Position numbers and translations under genes: made by a program. 64,000 nt of DNA from assembly GCA_964017045.1 (NCBI GenBank), contig OZ024810.1, positions 1,088,111 to 1,152,110 of the forward strand. The letters are read 5' to 3'. How positions within the stretch are numbered: position 1 is the stretch's first letter; the number at the start of each line of letters is the position of its first letter. Below the pieces are notes generated by a model. That model searched no databases, had not been told where the DNA came from, and was given only the letters and a program-made list of their open reading frames with translations. Positions 28,952 through 59,900 of this stretch are shown in pieces. This DNA is from Omphiscola glabra. Taxonomy: Eukaryota; Mollusca; Gastropoda; Lymnaeidae.

Positions 28952-31900
28952 ATGATTAAAATGGCGACAACCTTAAACCTAAAATTAAATTGTGTGTTCA
29001 AACCCAGATATGCTTCGATCGCTTTCGGCATCGCGATTCTGTTGACTTTCTGGAATATTCTGATAATGGAATATCTTCAAAACGGAGTCGAATTCGGGAA
29101 TCTTCGCCAAGTAATGCTAGGCAAACTTACCTTTCTTACGGGTTACTTCAAAGGCGGTGATGAAAAAAGTGACCCGCCGTGCCAAGTCACGCCGTTTGTC
29201 TCGTGTGAGAAGACCCCGTCCGAACGCTATTCTGAATTCACCCCGTTCATGAACAACCCTTTCTTCAAGACCAGGGCCAAGTTAAAAGCGGGACTCCCTG
29301 TTCAGATCAACTACATCAACATGAGAGCATGGCCGTGTACGGAGAACCCCGCGTGTGTCTACAGCGGGGGGAATGTCACAGAGGAAACGGACGTGGTCAT
29401 CGCGCATGCGTTCTGGCTGTCCGAGGCGATGCTTCCGGAACAGCGGTGGCCCGGGCAAATTTACGTCATGGTGGCTTTAGAGGCGCCCCACAACTACAAG
29501 TGGCAGTTGGTGGAAAATGGTGAGTAGGTGGGCTTTAAGCACATTTTTTATTCTGGTTTGGTGGGTTAAGAGCTTTTCATTCTGGGTAGGTTGGATAAGA
29601 CCTTTTCATTCTGGGTAGGTGGGATAAGACCTTTTCATTCTGGGTAGGTGGGTTAAGAGCTTTTCATTCTGGGTAGGTGGGATAAGACCTTTTCATTCTG
29701 GGTAGGTGGGATAAGACCTTTTCATTCTGGGTAGGTGGGATAAGACTTCATTCTGGGTAGGTGGGTTAAGAGCTTTTCATTCTGGGTAGGTGGGATAAGA
29801 CCTTTTCATTCTGGGTAGGTGGGTTAAGAGCTTTTCATTCTGGGTAGGTGGGATAACACCTTTTCATTCTGGGTAGGTGGGATAAGACCTTTTCATTCTA
29901 GGTAGGTGGGTTAAGAGCTTTTCATTCTGGGTAGGTGGGATAAGACCTTTTCATTCTGGGTAGGTGGGATAAGACCTTTTCATTCTGGGTAGGTGGGATA
30001 AGACATTTTCCTTCTGGGTAGGTGGGATAAGACCTTTTAATTCTGGGTAGGTGGGATAAGACCTTTTCATTCTGGGTAGGTGGGATAAGACCTTTTCATT
30101 CTGGGTAGGTGGGATAAGACCTTTTCATTCTGGGTAGGTGGGATAAGACCTTTTCATTCTGGGTAGGTGAGATAAGACTTAACTTTTCATTAACTGAATT
30201 ATATTTAGGAAATGCTATTCCCACAACAATGGTACTAAATTAGCTCAGTAGGTAGAGTTAAGATAAATTGATGGTAGAGTTAAGATAAATTGATGGTGGA
30301 GTTAAGATAAAATGATGGTAGAGTTAAGATACATTCATGCTAGAGTTAAGATAAATTGATGGTAGAGTTAAGATAAATTGATGGCGGAGTTAAGATACAT
30401 TCATGCTAGAGTTAAGATAAATTGATGGTGGAATTAAGATAAATTGATGGTGGAGTTAAGATACATTCATGCTAGAGTTAAGAAAGATAAATTGATGGTA
30501 GGAATACGACATGTGTACGGGAGCCACTGAGGATAGTAAAGCAACAGATGGTAGTGTCTTTATTTTTACACAAATTGTTGATGTGCGTCTCATAAGTAGA
30601 TGGATGCCCAGTGACCTAGTTCAGTAGATGCGAAGAACGGTTCTCAAACAGGGCGCTGTGCAGTTTGAGCGAACCCTTAACTATTGTTTTTATTTAAAAC
30701 TAAATATCACTTCGGTTATAACAAACGACAATTGCGATGTTCCCAAAGGTTCCCTCATAGCAACATCGACGATTGCGATGTTCCCAAATGTTCCCTCATT
30801 GCAACTCTGAAGATTGCGATGTTCCCAAAGGTTCCCTCGTAGCAACATCGATGATTGAGCTTTTCTAAAATGTTCCTCTTTTTAACATCGATGAATCTGA
30901 TGTTCCCCAATGTTCCAGAGACGTCCGTCTGGAGGAATGTGTTCAACCTGACGGCGACGTATCACCGGAAGTCGGATATCTTTTACCCCTACGCCAGGCT
31001 TCGGTTTAGACCACTTCCGGTGGACCAACGACCAGACTATAGTAAGAGTCTGTCTAATTTGTTTAGTCTACCTCTGTCCATAAAAATCTTTTTGGCAAGT
31101 ACTGCTTGTAATCTATTGTTGGAATAGACATGCATCTCTTGGTTTTACAATTAGTTTTGTCATTTTTTGCACAGCAAGTTCAAGCAACGAAAACTATAGC
31201 AACAACTTTTAAATGCGATTCTGCATTCAACATTAACTTTGATCGTTTTATATATTCAGTCACCCTCTCCTCTTCCTCCTCCCTACCTGGTTAGTAAAAC
31301 CATAGTAATGATACAATGAGGAGTAGCATTCTTAACTTCACCAGGGGCGTAGCTATCGTGTTTGGCGCCCGGGGACAAGATTCATTTTAAAGAGACCCCC
31401 TTTCCTTTTTTCAACTCTCAAACCCATTATTTTTATCAATTTAAATAATATCAAAGTACATTTTGGCGCCCCAAACTAGTCTGGCGCCTGGGACGCCTGT
31501 CCCCTGCCCCCTTAGCTACGCCTCTGAACCTTCACTTATCATTTTCCTTGGAATGGTCATGTACACAAGAATTGAGTAGTTCACAGACGAGTCAATCTGT
31601 TTTTTTCTCCTCGTAGTTCAATTGGCGGGGTCTAAAAATAGAACAGCTTTATGGATAGTTAGCAACTGTCGGACACAGTCAAAGAGAGAGAACTACGTCA
31701 AGATAATGCAGGTTCGTAGTGACAGCCCTTGTTTATAATGTAAAGCTGTGGGGAAGAATAAATTGTCTTTACGGCACTTTCCAGATGTGCCGAGCGGGGG
31801 AATCTCCTGCAGCGGCACGCGTTAAATAAATAGAACGAACTTGCAGACGTGAACCAGCATCAAGGAACCAGCTCATCCAAGGGTTGCCGGCATTGCTAGG

Positions 31901-33367
31901 GTTGCTGGGGTTGCCGGCGTTGCTGGTGTTGCTGGGGTTGCCGGCGTTGCTAGGGTTGCTGGGGTTGCCGGCGTTGCTAGGGTTGCTAGGGTTGCCGGCG
32001 TTGCTAGGGTTGCTGGGGTCACCGGCGTTGCTAGGGTTGCTGGGGTTTCCGGCGTTGCTAAGGTTGCTGGGGTTGCCGGCGTTGCTAGGGTTGCTGGGGT
32101 TGCCGGCGTTGCTAGGGTTGCTAGGGTTGCCGGCGTTGCTAGGGTTGCTGGGGTTGCCGGCGTTGCTGGGGTTGCTAGGGTTGCCGGCGTTGCTAGGGTT
32201 GCTAGGGTTGCCGGCGTTGCTAGGGTTGCTAGGGTTGCCGGCGTTGGTAGGGTTGCTAGGGTTGCCGGCGTTGCTAGGGTTGCTGGGGTTGCCGGCGTTG
32301 CTGGTGTTGGTTTCATCTTTTGTGTGGTCTGGCTGTTGGTGAGGCCACCGCTTGCTGTCACATGTAAGGGTTTGTGCTGTCAAATGTAATGGTTTGTGCT
32401 GTCACATGTAAGGGTTTGTGCTGTCACATGTAAGGGTTTGTGCTGTCACATGTAAGGGTTTGTGCTGTCACATGTAAGGGTTTGTGCTGTCACATGTAAG
32501 GGTTTGTGCTGTCACATGTAAGGGTTTGAGCTGCACGCTTGAAATCAGCCTAACGGTTGGGGGGGGGGCGGGCGGCGCTTTGGGGGGGGGGGGCCTAGGG
32601 ATAGTACCTGAAGGTTTCTTCTGACACTCACGGGATTTCTAGTTAAGTCGAAACTTGTAGTAAAGTAAATCAAACCCAGACAAATAGATCTATGACCCCG
32701 GAAGTAAACAATTTTCAAAGAAAAAAAAAAGATCAACTCCTGATAAGATTATATGACGTAGCACAATGTAAATATACATTTATAAGGAAATGGGGTTCCT
32801 GTAGTTATTTTGTATAATCCTCTAATATTGAGTATTGTTAAAAATGTTCTTATTACTCACCCCCGACCCACCCCACCCTTTCAGAAATACGTGGATGTTG
32901 ACGTCCTGGGCTACTGCGGCACTGGCTTCAACTGTACCGACGAGAAGTGCCTGGATGACCTACTTAATCAGTACATGTTCTACCTGGCCTTCGAGAACTC
33001 GCTCTGCGAGGATTACGTCACGGAAAAATTCTTCCGGACCTACGCGCGGACCCGCAAAGTCGTCCCCGTGGTCAGAGGCGGCACCGAATACGGGAAGTTG
33101 TTTCCGGAGGGCACGTTCATCGACGTGGCGAATTTCCCATCGGCCAAAGATCTGGCGCTGCATTTGAAAAATCTGTCCACCGACTTGAATGTGTACAGCG
33201 GTTATCTAGAGAGGAAAGATGTTTACGAGTCGCTCTCCACGCCAAACTTAATGTGTACAGTGTGCGAGGCGGTGACGAAAGACTGGATATTTCCGAGAAC
33301 GTACGATATCAAGGAATGGTTGGCGGACCAGTGTTCTACGCCCAAAAACGAGAGTGACGTAGTGTAG
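28952..33367 (+). CDS. GT10 alpha-1,3-fucosyltransferase (gene B)
   Basis: Same predicted role as gene A: GDP-fucose-dependent alpha-1,3-fucosylation of glycans in the Golgi. Exons are 28952-29519, 30919-31041, 31617-31711 and 32885-33367, with phases 1, 1, 0 and GT-AG junctions; conceptual length 422 aa. A membrane anchor lies near residues 20-40 (SIAFGIAILLTFWNILIM). Exon 1 has ETDVVIAH and RWPGQIYVMVALEAP. Exon 2 has FNLTATYHRKSDIFYPYA. Exon 3, hidden from ORF scans, has ALWIVSNCRTQSKRENYV. Exon 4 has VDVLGYCG and the signature FYLAFENSL..DYVTEK (residues 294-310), then VVPVVRGG. Cysteines are frequent. The ATG at 28952 follows TGGTTTCAG, a plausible acceptor, so a 5' UTR exon is possible; an alternative ATG lies at 28961. 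It lacks A's repetitive stem and C-terminal extension, which largely explains the 94-residue difference. Acceptor preference is unknown. Confidence 0.93.
29520..30185. repeat. 29-bp minisatellite starting at the gene B exon 1 donor
   Basis: About 22 copies of a 29-bp unit containing GGGTAGGTGGGATAAGACC then TTTTCATTCT. The first, divergent unit begins at the splice donor itself (GTGAGTAGGTGGG), and each unit repeats a G|GTAGGT donor-like core. Confidence 0.94.
30245..30500. repeat. 21-22-bp minisatellite in gene B intron 1
   Basis: About 12 copies built on AGTTAAGATAAATTGATGGT, alternating with a variant reading ATACATTCATGCTAG. Confidence 0.88.
30725..30918. repeat. 41-bp repeat reaching the gene B exon 2 acceptor
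   Basis: Three to four copies of GATTGCGATGTTCCCAAAGG followed by TTCCCTCATAGCAACATC. The last, decayed copy (GATGTTCCCCAATGTTCCAG) supplies the 3' splice site at 30918. Confidence 0.82.
31342..31526. mobile_element. MITE with GGGGCGTAGCTA ends
   Basis: Begins CAGGGGCGTAGCTA and ends TTAGCTACGCCTCTG, a terminal inverted repeat. Flanks AACTTCAC and AACCTTCA are similar 8-mers. GGCGCC-rich blocks sit inside both ends. It lies in gene B intron 2 and is noncoding. Confidence 0.65.
31870..32320. repeat. 27-bp GC-rich minisatellite in gene B intron 3
   Basis: About 17 copies of GGGTTGCCGGCGTTGCTAGG then GTTGCTG, much more GC-rich than its surroundings. Long Leu/Gly and Pro/Thr/Asn frames on both strands are artefacts of the 27-bp period. 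Confidence 0.95.
32345..32530. repeat. 22-bp minisatellite in gene B intron 3
   Basis: Eight copies of GTCACATGTAAGGGTTTGTG plus CT, followed at 32560-32592 by two poly-G tracts. Confidence 0.94.
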
Positions 33368-33649
33368 AAAATTGGAGTTAAAAACTGTTATGGTATAACT
33401 AAACATTTTAAGACTTTAATTAAACATTTTTTTACATGTTACATTATGTTAAAAGTAAATGATTTAAGGTCTTACAAAATCAAAGTGTTTCGATTTCAAC
33501 TATTTCTAGACAGGTGCACGTCGTAACAATCATATTTGTGAACACATCTGTTTGCGCTGTTTCATATCACATACGGATATATATTTCTTTATAATGAAAC
33601 CTTTAAATACATATGTTTCATTTGCATGGGGTACGTCAAAATTTGTGTC

Positions 33650-34125
33650 AAACAGAGTAGCTTGTCCGTGGTCAAACAGAGTAGCTTACCCGTGGTCAAA
33701 CAGAGTTGCTTGCCCGTGGTCAAACAGAGTAGCTTGCCCGTGGTCAAACAGAGTAACTTGCCCGTGGTCAAACAGAGTAGCTTGCCCGTGGTCAAACAGA
33801 GTAGCTCGCCCGTGGTCAAACAGAGTAACTTGCCCGTGGTCAAACAGAGTAGCTTGCCCGTGGTCAAACAGAGTAGCTTACCCGTGGTCAAACAGAGTAA
33901 CTTGCCCGTGGTCAAACAGAGTAACTTGCCCGTGGTCAAACAGAGTAGCTTGTCCGTGGTCAAACAGAGTAGCTGCCCGTGGTCAAACAGAGTAGCTTGC
34001 CCGTGGTCAAACAGAGTAGCTTACCCGTGGTCAAACAGAGTTGCTTTCCCGTGGTCAAAAAGAGTAGCTTGCCCGTGGTCAAACCGAGTTGCTTGCCCGT
34101 GGTCAAACAGAGTAGCTTGCCCGTA
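33650..34125. repeat. 24-bp minisatellite downstream of gene B
   Basis: Twenty copies of GGTCAAACAGAGTAGCTTGC plus CCGT. Frames on both strands stay open over 100-160 codons because 24 is a multiple of three; the codon content is simply the unit. Confidence 0.95.
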
Positions 34126-34509
34126 GACGAAGACAACTTTTTTTCCCTTCCGGATAGTTCCAAAGTCGTATTTGTTGTTTTCTAAACTTGAATCTAGCAA
34201 ATTGAGTAGGGTTAATTGAAACATAACCATTAAATATATCTTGACATAAAAGTACACTTTTAAGTACACTGGATAATTGCTTTCCTTTCTATTCACATTA
34301 TTGTTATCCAAACCACGGCTACGACCAATGACTTCATCATGGCAGCGACCACTGAAATGAAGGCGGAACCAATCTACTTGGCCTTTTCTAACTGAAAATA
34401 AAATGAGGTTTCCCCTCCCCCCCTTTTTCCCCACAAACGGCAGTGGCTACCCATTGGCATTATATACTTAACTGAAATCAATTTTGTAAACAGAAACTGC
34501 ATATCAGAT

Positions 34510-34670
34510 GGAGCTTAAATTAAAAACTGCATATCAGATGGAGCTTAACTTTAAAACTGCATATCAGATGGAGCTTAACTTTAAAACTGCATATCAGATG
34601 GAGCTTAACTTTAAAACTGCATATCAGATGGAGCTTAACTTTAAAACTGCATATCAGATGGAGCTTAGTT
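34510..34670. repeat. 30-bp minisatellite
   Basis: Six copies of ACTGCATATCAGATGGAGCT plus TAACTTTAAA. Confidence 0.94.
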
Positions 34671-34714
34671 ATGAATTGAGATGATAGACTGTTTGAACTT
34701 AGAAATATTCTCAC

Positions 34715-34845
34715 TAATGAAATTAAACATCCTGGCCCTCTCTCACTCACACTTTCTTAATGAAATTAAACATCCTGGCCCTCTCTCACTCACACTTTCT
34801 TAATGAAATTAAACATCCTGGCCCTCTCTCACTCACAATTTCTTT
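34715..34845. repeat. 43-bp tandem repeat
   Basis: Three copies of a unit containing ATGAAATTAAACATCCTGGC and CTCTCACTCACA. Confidence 0.93.
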
Positions 34846-34864
34846 CTAAAAACTTCCCTCCCTT

Positions 34865-35215
34865 CACACACCCAGGTCCCATACACCCAGGTCCCACACA
34901 CCCAGGTCCCACACCCACGTCCCACACACCCCCGCCCCACACACCCACGTAACTTACATCCAAGACCCACACACCCATATCCCACACACCCAGGTCCCAC
35001 ACACCCACGCCCCACACACCCACGCCCCACACACCCACGTCCCACACACCCAGGTCCCACGCACCCAGATCCAACACACCCAGATCCCACACGCCCAGGT
35101 CTCACACACCCACGTCCCACAGACCCAGGTCCCACACACACACGTCCCACACATCCACGACCCACACACCCAAGTCCCACACCCAGGTCCCACACACCCA
35201 GGTCCCACACAAAAT
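34865..35215. repeat. 16-bp minisatellite
   Basis: About 22 variable copies of CACCCAGGTCCCACACA, ending about 130 bp beyond the 3' end of minus-strand gene C. The Gly/Val/Cys/Trp frames on minus are artefacts. Confidence 0.92.
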
Positions 35216-35341: not shown

Positions 35342-37597
35342 TTATCCCACAACGGCGGGAATCTCCTCGTAGATGCTGGAGATGAGAAATCCGGAGAAGG
35401 TGCCGTAGATCTCCTGGGCTGTTCCGTACAGGGCTGTTGGGTCGGCGGCCACCACGAACACCTGGTCGTCCTTGGCCAGTCTCAGGATGACGGAGTTGCC
35501 TTGGAGAAGAAGCAGACAATTTGCTACTTAAAGGTAGTGGTGTGGGAGAAGAGGCAGACAATTTGATACTTAAAGGTAGTGGTGCGGTGGAAGAGGCAGA
35601 CAATTTGATACTTAAAGATAGTGGTGTGGGAGAAGAGGCAGACAATTTGATACTTAAAGGTAGTGGCGCGGCTGAAATTTGTTATCCAGTGCTGCTAAGA
35701 AGAGCCGGGAGAAGGAAAAGCGGCGCCCGGCCCGAATCCTAAAATTAGCACCCCACCCTGTTTCACAAACCAATGATATTTGACATTTGCTATATCATTA
35801 TATATATGGATAATTTACGAAATTGGCCTCCCGGGTGGAGCCCTTCTTCACCCCTACACACTTCGCATGGCCGTGCTGCTAAACAGAAATTAGCATCCGT
35901 GCTATTGATTCAGAACTTTAAACAAATCAATAGTTTACAGCTCATGGGCATGTCCGCAACAAATCCACAAAAGACGTTTGAATCTTACAGGACAGTTAAT
36001 GAAAAATTCCCTTGCTCTGCTCGTCTTGAACACGAATACAGTTACAAAATAACACTAGTTATGACGTTACAGGTGCTCTGTAGATTTTCTCTCAAACTGT
36101 TTGTAACCATTAAGGATTTGTAAAAAAAAATAAATTACAAAACAACGATGTAAAAAACAGAATGTTTACCAGCGGCGGAGTACTCGTTGTCGATGTGCCC
36201 CCAGATGGAGGCCACGTAGTTGTAGTTTTGGTGGAGCTCCAGCCACATGTTGCCGCTGCTGTGTGAGAGGGCGTGGAACTGGAAGACGTAGAGACCGGCC
36301 TGTGGATGGATGGGTGGGTGGATGGGTGGATGGATGGGTGGATGGATGGATGGATGGATGGGTGGGTGGGTGGATGGGTGGGTGGGTGGGTGGATGGGTG
36401 GGTGGGTGGGTGGATGGGTGGGTGGATGGATGGGTGGATGGATGGATGGGTGGGTGGGTGGATGGATGGATGGATGGGTGGATGGGTGGATGGATGGGTG
36501 GATGGATGGACGGGTGGATGGATGGATTGGTGGATGGATGGATGATTAGATTTATGGATGCGTTGATGACTGTGTGAATGGATGGATGCAAGGATGGATT
36601 GAATCGATGGATGAAAAAATAGATGAATGGATATATAGATGATTGGATGAATGGATTTATGTTTACTATGTACACACGTATGTTGACATGTATGTGTACA
36701 AGATAAGTACATATTCATTAATCAGTCGACTTATATGTGAGCACGCACCGTTGGACACGTGAAGATCCCAGTTTTGATGTCATAGGCGCCTCCAACATTG
36801 GAGAAGACAGTGTCGTAGACGACCTTCTGATTGGCTGCTAGATTTTCATGGTGAGACAACCCCGCGGAGAAGGCGATTTCTTGGGGGTTTTGGGCCTTGC
36901 CTTTAAAGATGACAACGCCAAGTTAGAAAGTTGAATTTTTTGGTTCGAAAAGTTACAGTTGATTGGTTGGGGGGGGGGGGGGGGATGAGCGGCGAGGAGG
37001 TTTGACAGTAGGCGCAGAGAAAGATGCGCAGAGAAAGAGGCGCAGAGAAAGAGGCGCAGAGAAAGAGGCACAGACGTAGACATATTAATGGCAAAACATG
37101 GTGTCAGCCATTACTTTTTGTAATTTGAGAATCACCCATTACCTGAGATAGAAGGATATAAGAGGGTTAAGGGAAAGGAGCAGGCTAGAGAAGACAGATA
37201 GGTGTAAAGAGCAGGAGAAATAGGGCAAGACAGAGCTAAAGATCAGCATAAGAAGAACAGATATGTAGATAAGAGGATAGAGAAAGTGGAGAAAGATACA
37301 TGGAAAAAAAAAATAAAAAGACATACACGCAGAAATAGAAAAAGAGAGAGAGAGACATTTAATAAAAGTGCATCTGAAAGAGAGACTTACCCCAGCTTAA
37401 CAGCCATAATACAGACTTACCCCAGCTTAAAAGCTGACAGAGAGATTTACCCCAGCTTAACAGCCATAATACACACTTACACCCGCTTAACAGCTGACAG
37501 AGAGATTATACCCCAGCTTAACAGCTAAAAATACAGACTTACCCCAACTTAACAGCTGACAGACAAAGACAACAGCCAAGACAACCTTTGATGCCAT
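35342..37597 (-). CDS. Secreted C1q-domain protein (gene C)
   Basis: Small secreted protein made almost wholly of one globular C1q (gC1q) domain. In molluscs such proteins are usually trimeric pattern-recognition lectins in haemolymph or mucus; that role is known for the family and inferred here. Exons in transcript order are 37597-37543, 36900-36749, 36299-36170 and 35499-35342, with phases 1, 0, 1; conceptual length 164 aa. Residues 1-18 are a signal peptide ([19 protein letters not shown]). The domain begins AFSAGLS, continues [44 protein letters not shown] and [16 protein letters not shown], and ends with the hallmark YGTFSGFLI. No collagen or coiled-coil segment is present. It lies head to head with gene D about 3.4 kb away. 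Only its first intron position matches gene D. Confidence 0.9.
35500..35670. repeat. 42-bp repeat at the gene C exon 4 acceptor
   Basis: Three to four copies of a unit containing GAGGCAGACAATTTGATACT and AAAGGTAGTGGTG. On the sense strand each carries CTGCCTCTTCTCCCAC, a pyrimidine tract like the one that forms the real acceptor (CTTCTTCTCCAAG) at 35500. Confidence 0.85.
36300..36545. repeat. (GGAT/GGGT)n array at the gene C exon 3 acceptor
   Basis: Tetranucleotide repeat GGATGGGTGGAT with local variants. On the sense strand it is CCATCCATCC and runs directly into the acceptor CCACAG at 36300. All its open frames (Trp/Met/Gly/Asp; His/Pro/Ser) are artefacts. Confidence 0.94.
36960..36984. 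repeat. Poly-G tract
   Basis: G-run of about 14 in gene C intron 1, followed at 37015-37075 by four copies of GCGCAGAGAAAGAG. Confidence 0.8.
37382..37560. repeat. Repeat of the gene C exon 1 end and splice donor
   Basis: Three longer (about 55-60 bp) or six shorter copies. On the sense strand each reads AGCTGTTAAGCTGGGGTAAG with variants. The true exon 1 end is CAGCTGTTAAGTTGG|GGTAAG, so the last 18-20 coding bases and the donor are copied repeatedly into the intron. Confidence 0.88.
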
Positions 37598-40982: not shown

Positions 40983-43900
40983 ATGACGTCATCAAAAACT
41001 GCGCTCACCGCCTGCTGTGTGCTTGCCTTGACCTTGACGGTGTTGGGGCTAGGTAAGGATGCATGGCAAAATGGCTGCTAGAGGTCAGATTCTTCCTCTG
41101 TTCGTCTATTAACGTCTTCTGTTAACTCACTTCAAGTCTATTGTTTAGTGTATCTTATATGTCAATATTTTTATAGATACATTTGGTTGGAAAGTTCATT
41201 TTGGTTAGCAGTATGTAAATATATGGCTATGCACAGGGGGTGCCGAAGAAAAGAGGCACCCTCGCAAGGCCCTGCTAAACATCTCCGTAACAAAAGCTCT
41301 GTTACTCCAAACGTTTATATAAAACTATTTTATTGCTCAGTTTACGCTTTTTGATGTCAACAAATCATACAGAGAATCTCAAACCATTAAGGCAAGCTGT
41401 CATGCGACATTGCTGAAATAAATCAAAGCTGTGAGCTGGACATTAATCTTTAACAAACCCTGCCAACAAACACAAACTTGTCACAGAAAGGGCGGGGACA
41501 TTCCGGTACTTATCCATCCAAAGAAGGCAGCTAAGTACTCTCATATGATACAATGGTATTTCTCCCCCAAAGGATCAGAGGTAAAGCGTCAGACATCTGT
41601 CGCCAGACCAGCGTTCTCTGCGGGACTGACCAGCAGCATCAACGTGTCTGACCACGTCAACGTGACCTACGACCGGGTGTTCACCAACGTCGGCAACGTC
41701 TACGACCCAAAGACTGGAGTGTTCACGGTCCCCATGAATGGGACGTACACATTCTTGTTCCATGCTCTGGCGGAATACAGGTGGGTCGGCTTATCATTAG
41801 GTTTAGGTGGGTGGGCTTATCATTAGGTTTAGGTGGGTGGGCTTATCATTAGGTTTAGGTGGGTGGGCTTATCATTAGGTTTAGGTGGGCTTATCATTAG
41901 GTTTAGGTTGGTGGGCTTATCATTAGGTTTAGGTGGGTGGGCTTATCATTATGTTTAGGTGGTTCGGCTTATCATTAACTTTAGGTGGTTCGGCTTATCG
42001 TTAGGTTTAGGTGGGTGGGCTTATAATTAGGTTTAGGTGGGTGGGCTTATCATTAGGTTTAGGTTGGTGGGCTTATCATTAGGTTTAGGTGGTTCGGCTT
42101 ATCATTAACTTTAGGTGGTTCGGCTTATCATAAGGTTTAGGTGGGTGGGCTTATCATTAGGTTTAGGTGGGTGGGCTTATCATTATGTTTAGGTGGTTCG
42201 GCTTATCATTAACTTTAGGTGGTTCGGCTTATCGTTAGGTTTAGGTGGGTGGGCTTATCATTAGGTTTAGGTGGATGGGCTTATCATTAGGTTTAGGTGG
42301 GTGGGCTTATCATTAACTTTAGGTGGTTCGGCTTATCATTAGGTTTAGGTGGGTGGGCTTATCATTAGGTTTAGGTGGGTGGGCTTATCATTAGGTTTAG
42401 GTGGTTCGGCTTATCATTAACTTTAGGTGGTTCGGCTTATCATTAGGTTTAGGTGGGTGGGCTTATCATTAGGTTTAGGTGGGTGGGCTTATCATTAGGT
42501 TTAGGTGGGTGGGCTTATCATTAGGTTTAGGTGGGTGGGCTTATCATTAGGTTTAGGTGGGTGGGCTTATCATTAGGTTTAGGTGGGTGGGCTTATCATT
42601 AGGTTTAGGTGGGTGGGCTTATCATTAGGTTTAGGTGGGTGGGCTTATCATTAGGTTTAGGTGGGTGGGCTTATCATTAGGTTTAGGTGGGTGGGCTTAT
42701 CATTAGGTTTAGGTGGGTGGGCTTATCATTAGGTTTAGGTGGGTGGGCTTATCATTAGGTTTAGGTGGGTGGGCTTATCATTAGGTTTAGGTGGGTGGGC
42801 TTATCATTAGGTTTAGGTGGGTGGGCTTATCATTAGGTTTAGGTGGGTGGGCTTATCATTAGGTTTAGGTGGGTGGGCTTATCATTAGGTTTAGGTGGGT
42901 GGGCTTATCATTAGGTTTAGGTGGGTGGGCTTATCATTAGGTTTAGGTGGGTGGGCTTATCATTAGGTTTAGGTGGGTGGGCTTATCATTAACTTTAGGT
43001 GGTTCGGCTTATCATTAGGTTTAGGTGGGTGGGCTTATCATTAGGTTTAGGTGGGTGGGCTTATCATTAGGTTTAGGTGGGTGGGCTTATCATTAGGTTT
43101 AGGTGGGTGGGCTTATCATTAGGTTTAGGTGGGTGGGCTTATCATTAGGTTTAGGTGGGTGGGCTTATCATTAGGTTTAGGTGGGTGGGCTTATCATTAG
43201 GTTTAGGTGGGTGGGCTTATCATTAGGTTTAGGTGGGTGGGCTTATCATTAGGTTTAGGTGGGTGGGCTTATCATTAGGTTTAGGTGGGTGGGCTTATCA
43301 TTAGGTTTAGGTGGGTGGGCTTATCATTAGGTTTAGGTGGGTGGGCTTATCATTAGGTTTAGGTGGGTGGGCTTATCATTAGGTTTAGGTGGGTGGGCTT
43401 ATCATTAGGTTTAGGTGGGTGGGCTTATCATTAACTTTAAGTGGGTCGGCTTATCATTAACATTAAATTGGTATGCTTATCATCAGCTCTACGTGAGTAG
43501 ACTTTTTATTAACTGTAGATGGTTGGGCTTATCATTAGGTTTAGATGATATAGTTATCATGAGTTTTAATTGGAAAGGCTTATCATTATCTTCAGATGGG
43601 TTGAGTTGTCATTAGTTTTAGGTGGGTTGGCTGACCATTAGTGACAGCAGATACACTTATCATAAGTGGTAAACTATTCAAAAGTAATAGAGGCGATCGA
43701 TTTAACATCAGTGATTGGAGGTATTGATCTCATTCAATACAAAGGAAATCGACATCATTAATGACTGGAAACAATTCAATCAAAACAAATTTCCATTGAT
43801 TTGGATCAATAATAACATCTTATCTTATTATCGTATCTTATCTTATTTTGAAGCCAAATTAAAACACAAATAGATGATTGAATATGCTAAGTGCTTTTGT

Positions 43901-44953
43901 CATGCTCGTCATCAGGGGCGGAGCTAGGGTAGTGACACCCGTGGTGGGTAAAGCTTTTTGCTGCCCCATTGAAGGAAAAAAAATCTAAGGTTTCCCGAAA
44001 ATGCTTTATAAGGATAAAAGTTCTAACCCGGGGCGGACCGCCCCCACCACACCCCCTCCCTACGCCCCCCTAACACAATTGTTACTTTGCCTCTGTCCAG
44101 CGGTATGCTTTGGTTGGACTTGTATAGAAACAGTCAGTACATCACCTCGGCATACGCCCACATCGAGGGGCAGTACGGGGCAGCCAGCAACTCTATCACC
44201 ATAACCCTGGCTCAAGGTAATGCTAGACCCACATTAAGTTAACTCTATCACCATAACACTGGCTCAAGGTCATGCCACACCCACTTTAGGTTTTCAATTT
44301 AAGGTATTTTAAACAACATGTACACCCAGTGGCGTCACGTGTCAAAGTGCCGCCCGCGGCGAACTCTCAGATGTACGTCTACAATCGTACATAAATCATT
44401 TAAATGAGTTGGTATATAAACCTAAAAATTAAGCGCCCGGGGCGATCGCCACCTTAGCCGTTGCGCTCCCTTGTCTATTTTTTACCTACTTCCGATAAGA
44501 GGAAGAGTCAACGAGATACAGAGTATTATATAAATTACTTAACATCTTATAAAGCGTCAATGTAATGGCAATGTTTTTGTCTGGTCCACATCAAAGTCAA
44601 TGTAATGGCAATGTTTTTGTCTGGTCCACATCAAAGTCAATGTAATGGCAATGTTTTTGTCTGGTCCACATCAAAGTCAATGTAATGTGAATGTTTTTGT
44701 CTGGTCCACATCAAAGTCAATGCTCATGATGAACCACCTTCTTACGATGCTCCCCTTCTCTTTCCCCGCCACCCCCATCCAAAACAACAACATCTCCAAC
44801 AACGATAACATCAACAACAACAACAACTACTCAACATCAACTACACAACCACCAGGTGATGAGGTCTACATCACGGGCCACGGCTCCAGCATCCTCTACG
44901 GTAACCCCAACGAGGTCTACGCCACGTTCACTGGGTACATGCTGTTTTCGTAA
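40983..44953 (+). CDS. Secreted C1q-domain protein (gene D)
   Basis: Short secreted gC1q protein, 163 aa in concept, paralogous to gene C. Exons are 40983-41052, 41573-41780, 44101-44216 and 44856-44953, with phases 1, 2, 1 and GT-AG junctions. Residues 1-23 are a signal peptide (TACCVLALTLTVLGL core). The domain reads PAFSAGLTSSI, VTYDRVFTNVGNVYDPKTG, FTVPMNGTYTFLFHAL, MLWLDLYRN, NSITITLAQGDEVYI and ends YATFTGYMLFS. One N-glycosylation sequon (NVS) and a second (NVT) are visible. No collagen region. Compared with C, intron 1 is at the same position and phase, but introns 2 and 3 are at different sites and C's intron 2 is absent. Both D-specific introns start with tandem copies of donor sequence. 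The function (recognition lectin) is inferred from the family. Confidence 0.9.
41781..43440. repeat. 25-bp minisatellite starting at the gene D exon 2 donor
   Basis: About 66 copies of GTGGGTGGGCTTATCATTAG plus GTTTA. The first unit is the donor itself (CAG|GTGGGTCGGCTTATC), and each later unit repeats TTTAG|GTGGGT. Variant units (GGTTCGGCTTATCATTAACT) cluster in the first 700 bp and at 42990; the middle is nearly perfect. Confidence 0.97.
43441..43912. other. Intron 2 of gene D, eroded repeat
   Basis: Starts with decayed units of the preceding array (to about 43640), then plain AT-rich intron. Confidence 0.6.
43913..44072. mobile_element. MITE relic, GGGGCGGAGCTAGGG type
   Basis: Begins CAGGGGCGGAGCTAGGGTAG and ends CCCTACGCCCCCCTAACAC, imperfect inverted ends. 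It sits just upstream of the gene D exon 3 acceptor (44100) and may have contributed the pyrimidine-rich tract. Related to the elements at 31342, 44329 and 50725. Confidence 0.55.
44189..44290. repeat. Two-copy duplication of the gene D exon 3 end and donor
   Basis: Copy 1 (44189-44240) is the last 28 nt of exon 3, the donor and 24 nt of intron. Copy 2 (44241-44290) repeats it with CCC to CAC and donor GTAATG to GTCATG. Period 52 bp. Confidence 0.95.
44329..44471. mobile_element. MITE relic, CAGTGGCGT type
   Basis: Begins CAGTGGCGTCACGTGTC with GCCGCCCGCGGCG, and ends with CGCCCGGGGCGATCGCCACC followed by TTAGCCGTTGCGC. Imperfect inverted arms and no coding capacity. Located in gene D intron 3. 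Confidence 0.5.
44560..44725. repeat. 40-bp minisatellite in gene D intron 3
   Basis: Four copies of a unit containing GTCAATGTAATGGCAATG then TTTTTGTCTGGTCCACATCA. Confidence 0.95.
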
Positions 44954-47338: not shown

Positions 47339-50300
47339 CTATTGCTTCTGATGGATCGGTTCCTGGCGCTCGGTGTAAGGTGGCGGGATCGGTAACTGTG
47401 GGGCGCCGAAATGCTGCTGTTCGTACTGAGGGGGTCCTAGGAACTGTGATTGTGGTGGGGGGTAGTACTGCTGACCCACGGCCAACATCTGAGGCTGGTA
47501 AGGTTGGCCGCCGTACAGCGCTGCTGCTGACGAGGAATGAAACACGACCCCTTGTGGCGGAGCTGCGCTTCCCGACATAACTTGCTGGATCGCGAGGGCG
47601 GCGATCATGCGATTGGCGCCCTGTAGGATGAAGGACCCGGTCATCATGAGCAGGATGGAGCCGGCAATGTTGACGGCGAACGAGTACCCGAGGTTGCTCT
47701 CCAGGTAGAGGTCAACCCCCATATTGCTGATGGAGTAGACGTCCACCTCGTAGATGAGGTCACCGACAAATGACGTCAGACCTGTGAAAGAAATGAGGTC
47801 AGACTTGTCGATTTGGGAGACGTTTGAGAATAAACAGTGAGAAATACTCGAAAAATATTTTTTTAAAAATGCATTGAGGTCTGGAAGATATATTCTGCTT
47901 GTTGGTGTCCAAGGGAGGTCACTTTGATTTTGACGTCACTTGAGGGGAGGGAACCTAGGGCTAATCCAAGGGACGCTATCAAATACAAAAGTCATTCTGT
48001 ATAAAAAAATAATTAATTAATTAAAACCTAACTTATGGCTTTGTTCCAATTCTATAGTTGACACTTTGAATTGATAATTCTACCTGCAACTAAAAAGCAG
48101 TCTGTGATACTCTCAAATATTAAGTTAAACAATGGAAGTAAGAAACCGATTTCAATAACAAATTTGTCCTTAACGCAATTCACAAACTTCTTTGACTGAT
48201 CAGCATTTTGTGCTAGGTTTACTAATGAACACCATTTTGTGCTAGGTCTACGAATCAACACCATTTTGTGCAAAGTCTACTAATGAACACCATTTTGTGC
48301 TAGGTCTACGAATCCACACCATTTTGTGCTAGGTCTACTAATGAACACCATTTTGTGCTAGGTCTACGAATCAACACCAATTTGTGCAAGGTCTCCACAT
48401 CAACACCATTTTGTGCTAGGTCTACGAATGAACACTATTTTGTGCTAGGTCTACAAAAGATCATCAGTTTGTGCTAGGTCTTCAAATGAACACCATTTTG
48501 TGCTAGGTCTACAAATGAACACCATTTTGTGCTAGGTCTAAAAATGAGCACCATTTTGTGCTAGGTCTCTACAAATGAACACCATTTTGTGCTAGGTCTA
48601 CAAATGAACACCATTTTGTGCTAGGTCTACAAAGGAACACCATTTTGTGCTAGGTCTACAAATGAACACCATTTTGTGCTAGGTCTACAAATGAACACCA
48701 TTTTGTGCTAGGTCTAAAAGTGAACATCAATTTCTGCTAGGTCTACAAATGAACATCAATTTGTGCTATGTTACAAATGAACATCAATTTGTGCTAGATC
48801 TACAAATCAACATCAATTTGTGCTAGGTCTACGAATGAACATCAATTTGTGCTAGGTCTACAAATGAACTTCAATTTGTGCTAGGTCTACAAATGAACTT
48901 AAATTTGTGCTAGGTCTACAAATGAACATAAATTTGTGTTAGGTCTACAAATGAACATCAATTTGTGCTAGGTCTACAAATGAACATCAATTTGTGCTAG
49001 ATCTACAAATGAACATCAATTTGTGCTAGGTCTACAAATGAACATCAATTTGTGCTAGGTCTACAAATGAACATCAATTTGTGCTAGATCTACAAATGAA
49101 CATCAATTTGTGCTAGGTCTACAAATGAACATCAATTTGTGCAAGGTCTACAAATGAACATCAATTTGTGCTAGGTCTACAAATGAACATCAATTTGTGC
49201 AAGGTCTACAAATGAACATCAATTTGTGCTAGATCTACAAATGAACATCAATTTGTGCTAGGTCTACAAATGAACATCAATTTGTGCAAGGTCTACAAAT
49301 GAACATCAATTTGTGCTAGGTCTACAAATGAACTTCAATTTGTGCTAGGTCTACAAATGAACTTCAATTTGTGCTAGGTCTACAAATGAACATCAATTCA
49401 TGAATACCAGAGTGTCTAAAGTTCATGGGTATTATATATCTATAAATAGGCCTATCACTTATTGTTTTCCTCCCGTATGTTACAGGCGTATTTGTTCATT
49501 TAGAACACAGTGGTGTCCACAGATCAGCCACTGAAACCCTAGAACAGTGGTTCTCAACCTTCCCAATGCCGCGACCCTTTAACGCAGTTCCTCATGTTGT
49601 GGCGACCCCCAAACCACAAAATTATTTTCGTTGCTATTTCATAACTGTAAAGTATTTGTGTTTTCCAATGGTCTTAGGCGACCCCTGGAGAAGGGTCATT
49701 CGACCCCCAAAGGGGTCGCGACCCACTGGTTGAGAACCGCTGCCCTAGAAGGTTATCGTGTAATACTATTTCGTCCCAGCTCTTTAAGCTTTATCTTGTA
49801 TTTTTATTTTGTTTGCATTTTTTTCTTTTGCTTGTATTCCCCTTGTAAACAATGTTTTTCCTTCCCGCCATCTGCACGAACTCTCAGTGCTAAGTGCTCA
49901 GTGCTAAGTGCTCGGTGCTCAGTGCTCAGTCTTCAGCATTTACAAGCGGATCTCAAAATCGAAAAAAAAAAGTTAGCCAATTTTTAAGAAACCCCGAAAA
50001 CAAATTGACTTTCAACCTAACTAGGACCAACCTACAACCTACGTATAAGAGGACCAACCTACAACCTATGTACAAGAGGACCAACCTACCACCTACGTAT
50101 AAGAGGACCAACCAACCACCTTTGTAAAAGTGGACCAATCTACCACCTACCTATAAGAGGACCAACCTACCATCTACGTATAAGACGACCAACCTACCAC
50201 CTACGTATAAGAGGACCAACCTACAACCTATGTACAAGAGGACCAATCTACCACCTACCTATAAGAGGACCAACCTACCACCTACGTATAAGACGACCAA

Positions 50301-53163
50301 CCTACCACTATGTATAAGACGACCAACCTACCACCTACGTATAAGAGGACCAACCTACCACCTATGAAGGACAAAGTCAAGCTGGCAAGGACCAGGCCCT
50401 TAGTCTGCGGGGGTTGTTTGAGGGCCTTGGCTATGAAGACCAGTCCCAGGCCGAGACCAATGAACCCGAGCACTATGCCCGTGATGCACAAGGCTCGCAC
50501 GCTCGTCAGAGTACCTGCGAATAAATGAATACAGACGAAGAGAAAGGTAAGATACCTGAAATATGTTGAAGTATTAGTTAGGTAACGTTGCTATGTTATT
50601 ATCTTAAAAGACCCCAATTTAGACTATCCTAAAGGATACTTCAAGGGGGTCGGCTACATAAACATCTTACGTATCCTTAATGGGGATCCTGGGGTGTGCG
50701 CAAGGGGTAAAATTTACACCCATTAGCTTAGCTAGGGTTAGTGCCGCCCGGGGGCTGGATTTTGCCACCCCTACTTCGACAATAAAAAAAAATCAACTTT
50801 CATTTGGCCTAAAATCCCACCCTTCAAAATAAAATTTAAAAAAGTGGCGCCTGGGGCTAACCGACCCCACCGCCCCCTTCCTGACACGCCACTGTCTTTA
50901 AGGGATAAAAAGGAGTCGAGGACATAAATATCATAAGTATCCCTTAAGGCAGTGTTTCTCAACCTTTTCTCCACTCAGCACCCCCAACGAATAGCATTGC
51001 TAAGTCTCCCACCCAACATACAAAAGAAAAATTATATTTTAAAATTTGAAAATAATGGACTCCTAAATTATTTACTGAGTTGCAAAGAGAACTGTAGAAC
51101 TTCAGTTTATCAAGTATATCAACATGTATAACAACATGTATATATACATGTATATCATAATTTATAAACTAACGTGTCCTCTCTAATTAAATTCCATTTT
51201 TCAACCCCCCCCCCCCCCCCCAAATTGCCTTCTCGAACCCCTTGCGAGCACTTCAGTTTGGAGAACCCTGCCCAACTGGCATTCTAAGGGGTTTTGTAGG
51301 GGAATGTTCAACCCCCCCCCCCCCCCAAAGTATGCTAATTTTACATAGCATTACATAGTGCAAGAAATGAAATCAAAACACTATTTCTTAATTTATATTT
51401 TACCTCACTCACACCCCCACCCCCCACAACTTGACCATTAAAAAAATAGATTATGATGATTCTCCAAGGTACCCGTGAGTTCAATTCATAGCCACCACGG
51501 GATTCATTGAAAGCAAATACCACTATCTTTAGACTCACTGTTTGTGGTGATGGTCCTACATATCTTTAGACTCACTGTTTGTGGTGATGGTCCTACATAT
51601 CTTTAGACTCACTGTTTGTGGTGATGGTCCTACATATCTTTAGACTCACTGTTTGTGGTGATGGTCCTACAAATCTTTAGACTCAGTGTTTGTGGTGATG
51701 GTCCTACATATCTTTAGACTTACTGTTTGTGTTGATGGTCCTACATATCTTTAGACTCAGTGTTTGTGGTGATGGTCCTACATATCTTTAGACTCAGTGT
51801 TTGTGGTGATGGTCCTACATATCTTTAGACTCAGTGTTTGTGGTGATGTCCTACATATCTTTAGACTCAGTGTTTGTGGTGAGGTCCTACATATCTTTAG
51901 ACTCAGTGTTTGTGGTGATGTCCTACATATCTTTAGACTCAGTGTTTGTGGTGAGGTCCTACATATCTTTAGACTCAGTGTTTGTGGTGAGGTCCTACAT
52001 ATCTTTAGACTCAGTGTTTGTGGTGAGGTCCTACATATCTTTAGACTCAGTGTTTGTGGTGATGTCCTACATATCTTTAGACTCAGTGTTTGTGGTGAGG
52101 TCCTACATATCTTTAGACTCAGTGTTTGTGGTGATGTCCTACATATCTTTAGACTCAGTGTTTGTGGTGAGGTCCTACATATCTTTAGACTCAGTGTTTG
52201 TGGTGAGGTCCTACATATCTTTAGACTCACTGTTTGTGGTGATAGTCCTACATATCTTTAGACTCACTGTTTGTGGTGAGGTACTACATATCTTTAGACT
52301 CAGTGTTTGTGGTGATAGTCCTACATATCTTTAGACTCAGTGTTTGTGGTGAGGTCCTACATATCTTTAGACTCACATGTGGTGATAGTCCTACATATAT
52401 TTAGACTCAGTGTTTGTGGTGAGGTCCTACATATCTTTAGACTCACATGTGGTGATAGTCCTACATATATTTACTCACTGTTTGTGGTGAGGTCCTACAT
52501 ATATTTACTCACTGTTTGTGGTGAGGTCCTACATATATTTAGACTCACTGTTTGTGGTGAAGATCCTACATATATTTACTCACTGTTTTTGGTGAGGTCC
52601 TACATATATTTAGACTCACTATTTGTGGTGAGGTCCTACATATATTTAGACTCACTGTTTGTGGTGATGGTCCTACATATATTTACTCACTGTTTGTGGT
52701 GAGGTCCTACATATATTTAGACTCACTGTTTGTGGTGAAGATCCTACATATATTTACTCACTGTTTTTGGTGAGGTCCTACATATATTTAGACTCACTGT
52801 TTGTGGTGAGGTCCTACATATATTTAGACTCACTGTTTGTGGTGATGGTCCTACATATATTTACTCATTGTTTGTGGTGAGGTCCTACATATATTTAGAC
52901 TCACTGTTTGTGGTGATGGTCCTACATATATTTAGACTCACTGTTTGTGGTGATGGTCCTACATATATTTACTCACTGTTTGTGGTGATGGTCCTACATA
53001 TTCCGTTTGACGTACACGCCCTGAACAGGCCGACGCTGCCGATGTACTTGTACGAGATTACCACCCAGTCGGTGGTTGCCACGCCCATGATCATGAGAGA
53101 TAGGGCCACCGCGTAACCGGCCAGGCCAATCGTGCACAACTGATTGATCGGTACCCCGGACAT
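47339..53163 (-). CDS. Claudin/PMP22-like four-TM protein (gene E)
   Basis: Predicted plasma-membrane protein with four membrane segments, 260 aa. Exons in transcript order are 53163-52977, 50514-50362 and 47781-47339, phases 1 and 1, GT-AG junctions. TM1 spans about residues 9-31 (CTIGLAGYAVALSLMIMGVA). The first loop has W33, then GLFRAC (45-50) and C56, matching the claudin/PMP22 W..GLW..C....C pattern with Phe replacing the second Trp. TM2 spans about 70-91 (CITGIVLGFIGLGLGLVFI), TM3 about 102-124 and TM4 about 146-166 (YSFAVNIAGSILLMMTGSFIL). The cytoplasmic tail of about 95 residues is rich in Gln, Pro and Tyr and ends near PPPYTERQ; PPPY (246-249) is a potential WW-domain ligand. The start is the ATG just before TM1; an in-frame upstream ATG lies in repeat DNA. 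Paralogous to gene F, with both introns at matching positions. Function unknown. Confidence 0.82.
48185..49400. repeat. 29-bp minisatellite in gene E intron 2, two blocks
   Basis: About 41 copies of a unit containing CTAGGTCTACAAATGAACA. Up to about 48715 units read ACACCATTTTGTG; after that they read ACATCAATTTGTG. The switch is sharp. Confidence 0.95.
49545..49742. mobile_element. hAT-type MITE, SPIN-like, copy 2
   Basis: 198 bp with ends CAGTGGTTCTCAACCTT and ACTGGTTGAGAACCGCTG. It is flanked by a perfect 8-bp target-site duplication CCCTAGAA (49537-49544 and 49743-49750). Internal blocks include CCGCGACCCTTTAA, TTATTTTCGTTGCTA and GGGGTCGCGACC. Ends, length and internal order match what I recall of nonautonomous SPIN elements. 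It sits in gene E intron 2. Confidence 0.92.
49880..49940. repeat. Short CTCAGTGCTAAGTG repeat
   Basis: About five copies of CTCAGTGCTAAGTG-type 7-14-mers. Confidence 0.7.
50030..50361. repeat. 27-bp minisatellite starting at the gene E exon 2 donor
   Basis: About 12 copies of AACCTACCACCTACGTATAA plus GAGGACC. On the sense strand each unit reads TAG|GTGGTAGGTTGGTCC, the same as the donor at 50361 (CATAG|GTGGTAGGTTGG). Confidence 0.95.
50725..50894. mobile_element. MITE relic, TAGCTAGGG type
   Basis: TTAGCTAGGGTTAGTGCCGC near one end and GGCGCCTGGGGCTAACCG, then GACACGCCACTG, at the other. Imperfect inverted ends, related to 31342, 43913 and 44329. In gene E intron 1. Confidence 0.5.
50950..51270. 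mobile_element. Possible hAT-like relic
   Basis: Begins CAGTGTTTCTCAACCTTTT and ends CAGTTTGGAGAACCCTG, a partial inverted terminal repeat of hAT type. No target-site duplication was found, and poly-C runs (51206, 51310) lie in and near it. Confidence 0.4.
51530..53001. repeat. 36-37-bp minisatellite of the gene E exon 1 end and donor
   Basis: About 40 copies. On the sense strand each unit contains ATGTAGGACCATCACCAC, AAACA and then GTGAGT. The true exon 1 ends ATATGTAGGACC..ACAAACA|GTGAGT at 52977, so the last 25 coding bases and the donor are included in the unit. Three variant blocks are visible (TCTTTAGACTCA; TATTTACTCA; ACATGTGGTGATAG). Confidence 0.96.
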
Positions 53164-53395: not shown

Positions 53396-53454
53396 GATAT
53401 TTTATGTGCATTAATAAAATTGAAAATACATTTTCATTTATGAAATTTGAAGGC

Positions 53455-56564: not shown

Positions 56565-56650
56565 CTAACCCTATCCCTAACCCTGACCATGTCGATATCC
56601 TTAACCCTGACACTGTCCCTAACCCTATCCTTAACCATATCCCTAAATCT
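56565..56650. repeat. Degenerate CCCTAA-like tract
   Basis: AACCCTAACCCTATCCCTAACCC followed by irregular CCTTAACCCTGAC phrases. An interstitial telomere-like or simple repeat, followed to about 56880 by phrases of type CCTATCACTTATTAGT. Confidence 0.65.
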
Positions 56651-56957
56651 ATGAAATGTTCTATTATTGACCTTTCTTATCACTGAGATGTCATAAAAGT
56701 GACCTGATCTATCAATGACCTGTCCTACCACTGATTTATTCTATCACTGGTGTATTAGTCCTATGACTAGTTTTCCTATCACTTATTAGTCCTATCACTT
56801 GTTATTCCTATCACTATTAGTCCTATCACTTATCAGTCCTATCACTGATTTGTCCTATCATTGAGTCCTCCTATAGTCCACGTCTCATTGCGACTACCCA
56901 CGTGATGCTGATCTATCCTGTACCCCAGATAACCTTCACCTCCCTCCGGTCACCCTT

Positions 56958-59900
56958 CTATATGTCAACATCGCCGTCACCGAACTCCGTCGTAACTTCA
57001 CCGACGTGCACCGACGAAGTCCCCAAACCTTTACCCCCGAACTGCCCATCGTACAACGCCTGTCGTTGCTGTAACTGCTGCTGCTGCTGTTGCTGGAGCG
57101 ACGTGTATCGGTTGTTCAAAGCGTTCACCACGGCCATCACCCGGATGTGATTCGTTAGCGTCGTGGCCATCTTCTTTGCCATCGCGTTCTTGAGTTGTGC
57201 GGCGTCTGACATGTACTTGGTGCTAAACAGGACCGGCGGCGTGCCCATCACCAGAACCACTATAAACCCCGTGAGGTGTAAGACGAAGGAGTATCCCAGG
57301 TGGGGTACTTTGCTGTTGTCGCCTGGTGTTGACGGTATGTGGTAGACGATATGGAAGTACAGCAGTTGACGTGAGGTCCCGGGGGTGGGGGGTGTCGGGG
57401 TAATGATGTCAGGCGTCCAGGAGTCCGATGCATAGATGATGTCAGCCGCCATAGAGATGAGGGCTGAAATCAAACCAAAGAAAAATAAAGGACTATAATT
57501 CCTTGCTTAGTTCAATGCTACGCTTCACTGCCCCCCATTCTTAAGACTCCATGGTGTCCCCAACACATCACTAAATGTTTTTCTACGACTTTTTTGCCTG
57601 TGCTCATTCGTTGGAAAATATTTAGATAAAAAAGAAAACGAAAAAAAATAGAATTATCCCACCCAGTACACCAACCTACCTGCCACACCAGAGATGATCC
57701 CACCCAGTATACCAACCTACCTGCCACACCAGAGATGATCCCACCCAGTATACCAACCTACCTGCCACACCAGAGATGATCCCACCCAGTATACCAACCT
57801 ACCTGCCACACCAGAGATGATCCCACCCAGTATACCAACCTACCTGCCCCACCAGAGATGATCCCACTCAGTATACCAACCTACCTGCCACACCAGAGAT
57901 GATCCCACCCAGTACACCAACCTATCTGCCACACCAGAGATGATCCCACTCAGTATACCAACCTACCTGCCCCACCAGAGATGATCCCACCCAGTACACC
58001 AACCTACCTGCCCCACCAGAGATGATCCCACCCAGTACACCAACCTACCTGCCACACCAGAGATGATCCCACACAGTATACCAACCTACCTGCCACACCA
58101 GAGATGATCCCACTCAGTATACCAACCTACCTGCCACACCAGAGATGATCCCACACAGTATACCAACCTATCTGCCACACCAGAGATGATCCCACACAGT
58201 ATACCAACCTACCTGCCACACCAGAGATGATCCCACTCAGTATACCAACCTACCTGCCACACCAGAGATGATCCCACACAGTATACCAACCTATCTGCCA
58301 CACCAGAGATGATCCCACACAGTATACCAACCTACCTGCCACACCAGAGATGATCCCACTCAGTATACCAACCTACCTGCCACACCAGAGATGATCCCAC
58401 ACAGTATACCAACCTACCTACCACACCAGAGATGATCCCACCCAGTACACCAACCTACCTGCCACACCAGAGATGATCCCACTCAGTATACCAACCTATC
58501 TGCCACACCAGAGATGATCCCACACAGTATACCAACCTACCTGCCCCACCAGAGATGATCCCACCCAGTACACCAACCTACCTGCCCCACCAGAGATGAT
58601 CCCACACAGTATACCAACCTACCTGCCCCACCAGAGATGATCCCACTCAGAACACCACATTTTCTTATCACGGAGACCTCTGTGGCCCGTATCATCTGAA
58701 TGGCCAGGCCGAAGCTGGTCAAGGTCAGTAGCATGCCAATAATGGACAGCGACAGGACTGCCTGTAAAGTTGCTGGAGTGGATAGAAAGGCATCAATAAT
58801 TGTAATTTTCCTGGAGTCGATAGAGAGACAGCAATGATTTTAAGGTGACTGAAATGGATAGAGAGACAGCAATGATTGGAATTTTGCTGGAGTGGATAGA
58901 GAGACAGCTCAGATTGCGATGTTGTTGGAGTGGACAGAGAGACAGCAATGATTGTAACTTGTCTGAAGTGGACAGTGTGAGAGCAATGATTGTAACGTAG
59001 CTGAAGTGGATAGAGATAACGCAATGATTGGAATTTTGCTGGAGTGGATAGAGAGACAGCAATGATTGTAATTTTTCTGGAGTGGTTATAAAGACAGCAA
59101 GGATTGTAACATGGCTGGAATGGATGGAGAGACAGCAATTATTGTAAGGTGGCTGCAACGAGACGTAACGATAGCAGAGAAATAATATTTATTGAGAACA
59201 TGCCGCTAAAAGGGTTAATGTTAGGGTTTGGCTTGAATTAACGCTAAAAGTGTTAACTGATTCACATCAGAACAATGCCAATCTGAAGTCTAAACTTTAT
59301 GTATACAACTGAATCACATCATTCCAATGACAGTCTAAAAGTCTAAACTGTATGTTTACCACTGTCATTGACTGCCCGTGGGTTGCTCAACAACTTGCCA
59401 CCATCACAGTCGTACCCATAGAGTCCACTTCTGCAACCGTCCAAGACGTCCGTCCACACCGGACTGGCGACCCCTGCGAGCATCGCCCCGAACCCTATGG
59501 TCAGTGCCATGATGCCGAACGCGAAACTGTAAGTAGCCTTTCGCTTGAGAATGACGAATCGTATGAGGTCCTCCTTCGATGGCCCAGCTAGAACTGTGAC
59601 TGGGGGCGGGGCGACCTGTGGACCAGGAAGTAGTTTCGAGTGAATTAAAAAATTCTCAGGAGAAATATCGTTCATGTAGAATGTAGTTTTAAACAGTGGT
59701 AAAATGGTAACATCCTGACCTAAGGTAGAATGTAGTTTTAAACAGTGGTAATACGATAACATCCTGACCTAAGGTAGAATGTAGTTTTAAACAGTGGTAA
59801 TAGGATAACATCCTGACCTCAGGTAGAATGTAGTTTTAAACAGTGGTAATAGGATAACATCCTGACCTAAGGTAGAATGTAGGTTTAAACAGTGGTAATA

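Follow-up and report, generated by a model that had tools for sequence, protein, structure and literature searches.

Genes and minisatellites of the window

A 64,000-nucleotide stretch of the genome of the snail Omphiscola glabra (C18:1088111-1152110, contig OZ024810.1 of a 744.8-Mb, 37-contig genome; hereafter the window) contains six gene models, and minisatellites lie across, or directly beside, several of their exon-intron borders. Tandem repeats account for 38.5% of the window, as estimated from a manually compiled list of its main arrays. The models form three pairs, namely GT10 fucosyltransferases (G1 and G2), C1q proteins (G3 and G4) and claudin-like proteins (G5 and G6); Pfam was run on five of the six proteins. 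They hold 16 introns in total, one fewer than the 17 reconstructed in an earlier note on this DNA. The two fucosyltransferase genes agree with each other in intron positions and phases, as do the two claudin-like genes. The C1q genes share the position of intron 1, with introns 2 and 3 placed differently; the models at these introns are supported by full coverage of the C1q domain. G6 was refined by hand for frame, the start of its exon 2 being chosen from phase and from the G5 paralogue. G5 is 86-87% identical over its whole length to a Lymnaea stagnalis protein, the sole match of the search, with no alignment gap at either of the two exon junctions. Reading frames are open across the outermost splice sites in the window models.

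Minisatellites at splice donors

Arrays were detected with Tandem Repeats Finder (TRF) and counts were restricted to periods of at least 7 bp. All seven donor-side structures listed in the earlier note are present, six of them in the TRF output and that of G2 intron 1 by eye. The donor lies inside the array, or at its first unit, in G2 intron 1, G3 intron 1, G4 intron 2, G5 introns 1 and 2 and G6 intron 2 (the intron earlier labelled gene F intron 3). Relative to the donor, the TRF arrays start at -21 (G3 intron 1), -2 (G4 intron 2), -28 (G4 intron 3), -25 (G5 intron 1), -6 (G5 intron 2) and -35 (G6 intron 2). For G2 intron 1 the TRF start is at +25, and it is by eye that we place a first, diverged unit at the donor itself. 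An additional duplication (52 bp, 2.1 copies) crosses the donor of G6 intron 1 at -5. Copy number among the donor arrays of the window ranges from two (G4 intron 3) to 71.8 (G4 intron 2).

The repeat units mix sequence from the two sides of the border. The unit of G6 intron 2 includes 35 nt of exon, and in the dynein gene D4 (see below) a 98-bp unit present in five copies (D4@12457) copies 80 nt of exon. The exonic content is small in G4 intron 2 (2 nt) and, by TRF, zero in G2 intron 1. This supports the proposal in the earlier note that the arrays arose by tandem duplication of stretches containing the junction. Most copies in the arrays examined retain the GT.

Minisatellites at splice acceptors

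Donors had been regarded as the only consistent landmark for the arrays; arrays at acceptors had been overlooked. Among the 25 arrays of the window one spans an acceptor, that of G6 intron 1 (+10), and three end just short of one, by 2 bp in G2 intron 1, 3 bp in G3 intron 3 and 6 bp in G4 intron 3. A TCCA array also reaches the acceptor of G3 intron 2 but was excluded from the counts for its period of 4. Both 5' and 3' borders are thus affected, in the window and in the dynein genes described below.

A separate array fills part of G1 intron 1 (19804-21193, minus strand). It is pyrimidine-rich, with units ending in TATCAG, and contains 46 AGs, 45 of which equal or exceed the score of the real acceptor ~ 380 bp downstream; these decoys are not attached to a border.

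Placement of arrays in dynein heavy-chain genes

As a null model, each array was collapsed to one unit whose birth was taken to be uniform over the intron and its borders. Dynein heavy-chain genes served as the independent set. A search with the PF12774 profile gave 128 matches at ~ 24 loci, and five 50-kb regions (loci 1-4 and 8 of the 20 listed), none picked for arrays, were analysed, with exons modelled by homology among the five genes. The curated set comprises 215 introns and 139 arrays.

Along the introns, these arrays show a uniform distribution of seed positions (Kolmogorov-Smirnov (KS) p 0.54; counts per intron decile 17, 13, 13, 17, 15, 12, 14, 10, 18 and 10). Nine arrays span a donor where 7.4-7.8 are expected (P 0.32-0.38), and four span an acceptor against the same expectation (P of so few 0.10-0.13); a fifth acceptor case, in D4 (39 bp, 2.1 copies), was found by reading and stands outside this count. 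A strict set obtained with splice-score filters (127 introns) has 6 donor and 1 acceptor cases, with 5.04 expected of each, and a loose set (193 introns), which includes spurious acceptors, has 9 and 7 against 6.9 each. Dynein donors are therefore spanned at the random expectation and, with array density taken into account, array edges in this sample lie no nearer to donors than at random; the claim that donors are commoner sites of arrays than chance would allow is not borne out in these genes.

Several candidates were discarded in arriving at these numbers. An initial acceptor count of 7 in 183 introns was inflated, because at D1@2053, D2@1781 and D4@7773 repeats had been taken for exon; D1@22470 and D1@22676 are a single acceptor site that had been tallied twice. 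The 215-intron set omits the first three and D5@19557 as spurious exons, and also the exon copies within the 98-bp array of D4 and the D1@22470 copy; three acceptors were moved by hand. D2@12462 enters the expectation with its TRF period of 233, although its unit reads as ~ 22 bp. The C1q paralogues proved unsuitable as a control set because few introns would have been left to test: for 28 of 42 matches in the genome, one match alone takes in 90 or more of the 127 domain positions.

Array density differs strongly from gene to gene in the dynein regions. D4 (L024-L028), with introns of 5-8 kb, has ~ 17 kb of array per 50 kb, compared with 3.6-6.7 kb in three others.

Where the repeat units begin

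Growth of arrays from the donor motif would leave next to no exon sequence in the unit. Expressed as a fraction of the period, the exonic share is instead uniform over 15 donor cases, eight from dynein genes and seven from the window (mean 0.53, KS p 0.68), which argues that the breakpoints are not anchored at AG/GT (the slash marks the exon-intron border). This comparison omits D2@12462, D5@3892 (-2) and G2 intron 1, and uses a period of 30 rather than the TRF value of 60 for G3 intron 1.

A genome-wide motif count was also made. Three copies of CAGGTRAGT separated by gaps of 6-36 bp matched 2200 times, versus 1773 times for the reversed motif. Within C1:1-43.15 Mb, 16 tandem-donor arrays were recognized by eye among the matches listed, versus 14 reversed-motif arrays, or 12 if three arrays near 43 Mb, all spaced at 34 bp, belong to a single family. 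The counts give no sign of a large class of donor arrays; the test is weak, since the 9-mer occurs on just 4 of 232 dynein exon ends and a single control motif was used. Taken together, the uniform placement in dynein introns, the uniform exonic share and these motif counts speak against exon-intron junctions as preferred seeds, the central suggestion of the earlier note.

Conservation and predicted use of the copied splice sites

The earlier estimate of 10-66 decoy donors per intron is not confirmed: allowing up to two mismatches in 10 bases, the window introns have from 0 to 50. Many copies match the real donor in splice score. Twelve of 13 arrays tried could be aligned (D4@24965 failed, and G2 intron 1 aligned out of register). 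Over 11 arrays the GT is kept in as few as 22 of 40 and as many as 51 of 51 copies, and in another array in 15 of 16; the low extreme is G5 intron 1, where 18 copies have lost it. Pooled GT identity is 0.945, compared with 0.963 at the other unit positions, and leaving out G2 intron 1 and G5 intron 1 gives 0.973 versus 0.961. The copied GTs may thus be under weak constraint. As a measure of whether border units escape homogenisation, divergence was compared along the arrays; it is 0.048 in edge units and 0.040 in middle units (9 arrays, p 0.12).

A copied donor is recognizable in 15 cases, and in 14 of these use of the first copy would cause a frameshift or introduce a stop. In G5 intron 2 the first copy is in frame, and G2 intron 1 has no close copy. 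Provided that the genes are functional, splicing presumably relies mainly on the outermost donor, and because the first copies are so consistently frame-breaking, the introns constitute natural tests of splice-site choice.

Intron borders and intron gain

In 15 of the 16 window introns, the surroundings of the donor and of the acceptor share no run beyond that found in 60 shuffled controls. The remaining one, G2 intron 3, has a shared run of 10 bp, roughly what chance would yield in 16 tests. Introns 2 and 3 of both C1q genes (G3, 35342-37597; G4, 40983-44953), the ones that differ in position, each have an array touching a border. Together with the one-match coverage of the domain in 28 of the 42 genomic C1q matches, this makes intron gain in the C1q genes a possibility. 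A broader proposal joins three statements: that minisatellites arise at exon borders of array-rich genes several-fold above random, that these aid the making of introns such as C1q introns 2 and 3, and that the spliceosome picks the outermost of tens of equally strong sites. As a whole we judge it improbable.

Features of the window

Coordinates of the border arrays and adjoining exons are collected in Table 1. G1 (17440-22614) and G2 (28952-33367) are diverged GT10 genes on opposite strands with a common four-exon structure, and their matching introns hold different arrays. A 48-bp array of 7 copies at 25332-25666, the unit of which includes AAGGTAAGT, lies outside the gene models built. Positions ~ 6645-6850 and ~ 49540-49735 carry two copies of one dispersed element, which resembles a non-autonomous hAT family.

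Table 1. Border arrays and adjoining exons (window coordinates; in donor sequences, exon in capitals and intron in lower case).
Feature	Position	Strand	Remarks
G2 fucosyltransferase exon 1	28952..29519	+	donor AAAATG/gtgagt
29-bp minisatellite from G2 intron 1 donor	29520..30178	+	TRF start 29545; diverged first unit by eye
41-bp array	30731..30916	+	ends 2 bp upstream of G2 intron 1 acceptor
42-bp array	35503..35666	-	ends 3 bp upstream of G3 intron 3 acceptor
TCCA array reaching G3 intron 2 acceptor (36299/36300)	36303..36656	-	
30-bp (TRF 60-bp) array over G3 intron 1 donor	37374..37563	-	includes 21 nt of exon
G3 C1q exon 1	37543..37597	-	donor GTTGGG/gtaagt
G4 C1q exon 2	41573..41780	+	donor ATACAG/gtgggt
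26-bp array, 71.8 copies, from G4 intron 2 donor	41779..43641	+	GT kept in 65/70 copies
52-bp two-copy duplication of the end of G4 exon 3 with the donor of intron 3	44189..44292	+	TRF
27-bp array over G5 intron 2 donor	50023..50364	-	TRF
G5 exon 2	50359..50514	-	donor TAGGTG/gtaggt
36/37-bp array, 41 copies, over G5 intron 1 donor	51524..53001	-	GT kept in 22/40 copies
G5 claudin-like exon 1	52977..53163	-	donor CAAACA/gtgagt
41-bp array, 24 copies, over G6 intron 2 donor	57656..58657	-	35 nt of exon included; GT kept in 19/23
G6 claudin-like exon 2	58623..58772	-	start CTCCAG/CAAC by hand; donor GGGCAG/gtaggt
38-bp array over G6 intron 1 acceptor	58763..59155	-	TRF
52-bp, 2.1-copy duplication over G6 intron 1 donor	59256..59364	-	coordinates approximate

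Discussion

The border arrays of O. glabra are probably 'mirages': tandem duplications that cross a border at random, are tolerated and expand as passengers. We propose that a short, randomly placed tandem duplication would occasionally happen across an exon-intron border. On the donor side, the exon end and the donor would then be present a second time, inside the intron; on the acceptor side, the first copy of the acceptor would fall upstream of the true one. Splicing at the outermost site, be it the first donor or the last acceptor, would leave the mRNA unchanged, so that the duplication would be near neutral, and it could then expand and homogenise like any minisatellite, carrying its splice signals along. 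Border arrays would be conspicuous because minisatellites form rapidly in this genome and not because donors attract them. What is observed is the anatomy of the arrays, the exon-derived sequence in their units, stages from 2 copies up to 52 and 72, and the uniform placement and exonic offset in independent genes. Near-neutrality and use of the outermost site are predicted from sequence.

Some of our counts weigh against random birth followed by plain tolerance. Six of the 25 window arrays span a donor, versus 1.37-1.68 expected (P 0.001-0.004), an excess that is post hoc since the window was chosen for this pattern. The dynein count most favourable to the earlier note, from a donor-side-only filter, is 9 in 156 introns versus 5.39 (P 0.097), and D4, the array-richest dynein gene, has 3 donor-spanning arrays versus 1.07 in the strict set (P 0.09). 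Donor and acceptor cases stand at 6:1 in the window and at 9:4 or 9:5 in the dynein genes, an imbalance not predicted by a symmetrical model. In 8 of 11 arrays, moreover, copies agree better at the GT than over the remainder of the unit (rounded figures). The figures for the window and for D4 would suit a preference for donor sites as birthplaces of minisatellites, for example through their sequence or through breaks linked to transcription. We nevertheless find such a preference unlikely, as seeds are placed uniformly in the 215 dynein introns with donors spanned at close to the expected number, unit offsets are not anchored at AG/GT, tandem donor motifs were found about as often as their reversed control in the stretch read by eye, and acceptor cases occur too. 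A local excess of donor arrays in array-rich genes is possible.

The uneven ratio of donor to acceptor cases could also arise after random birth, if acceptor copies were removed more often since an upstream acceptor may be used. The shortage of dynein acceptor arrays (P 0.04 in the strict set) points the same way; on the other side, the counts are small and there are genuine acceptor cases, of 2 to 10 copies, and we put such asymmetric tolerance forward only tentatively, as a possibility that deserves more credit than donor preference. The earlier note also offered a function for the copied donors, either in alternative splicing or in the binding of U1 as a protection from early polyadenylation. 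The many intact copies as strong as the real donor, and the arrays in which GT exceeds the rest of the unit, are what this would lead one to expect, but the support is not consistent: pooled GT identity is no higher than that of the rest of the unit, nearly half of the copies in G5 intron 1 have lost the GT, and use of the first copy would nearly always break the frame or add a stop. We regard such a function as very unlikely.

The earlier note knew of no description of this pattern as a genome-wide feature. It is already known from amphioxus, where passages of PMC3087553 and PMC3902484 describe as mirages tandem repeats across intron-exon borders, at both ends of introns, in Adh3, the globins BflGb6 and BflGb9, troponin C and PGBD5, and report regular splicing and normal mRNA; Canestro 2002 is a reference within this literature as quoted there. 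The snail arrays are alike in that their tandem units span intron-exon borders, 5' as well as 3', and in that AG/GT signals persist in many of the units though not in all. They differ in that a snail is concerned, in that several unrelated genes are affected in one window, in that a random-birth null model was tested, and in size, with up to 72 units compared with 3-6 in the amphioxus globin mirages. Our literature search found no report of mirages in gastropods, a negative of little evidential weight.

Related structures are known elsewhere. A minisatellite in human IFI6 reportedly lies at such a border. Like the snail arrays it supplies donor sites. PMC2572611 and PMC3618361 cite Turri, Cuin and Porter 1995 for this minisatellite of IFI6 (6-16) and its multiple splice donors; going by the title of that reference, its copies are used as donors, whereas the snail arrays are known from sequence alone. 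Ma et al. 2016 describe intron gain via a tandem duplication that crossed an intron-exon border and report a new intron; in the snail it is the anatomy of the duplications that is known, with gain of the C1q introns a possibility. Intronic minisatellites occur in earthworm metallothionein, and the passages concerned mention no spanning of borders.

The arrays of O. glabra are thus a rich further example of mirages, which adds a mollusc to the lancelets in which these were known. The independent genes do not bear out donor-specific seeding. They suggest why mirages exist: fast production of minisatellites puts some of them over exon borders, and splicing appears to be tolerant of them. The arrays set up to ~ 50 near-identical donors, mostly out of frame, behind the real one, even in genes as conserved as dynein. 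With so many near-identical donors in one intron, RNA-seq could measure how a 5' splice site is chosen by position alone.

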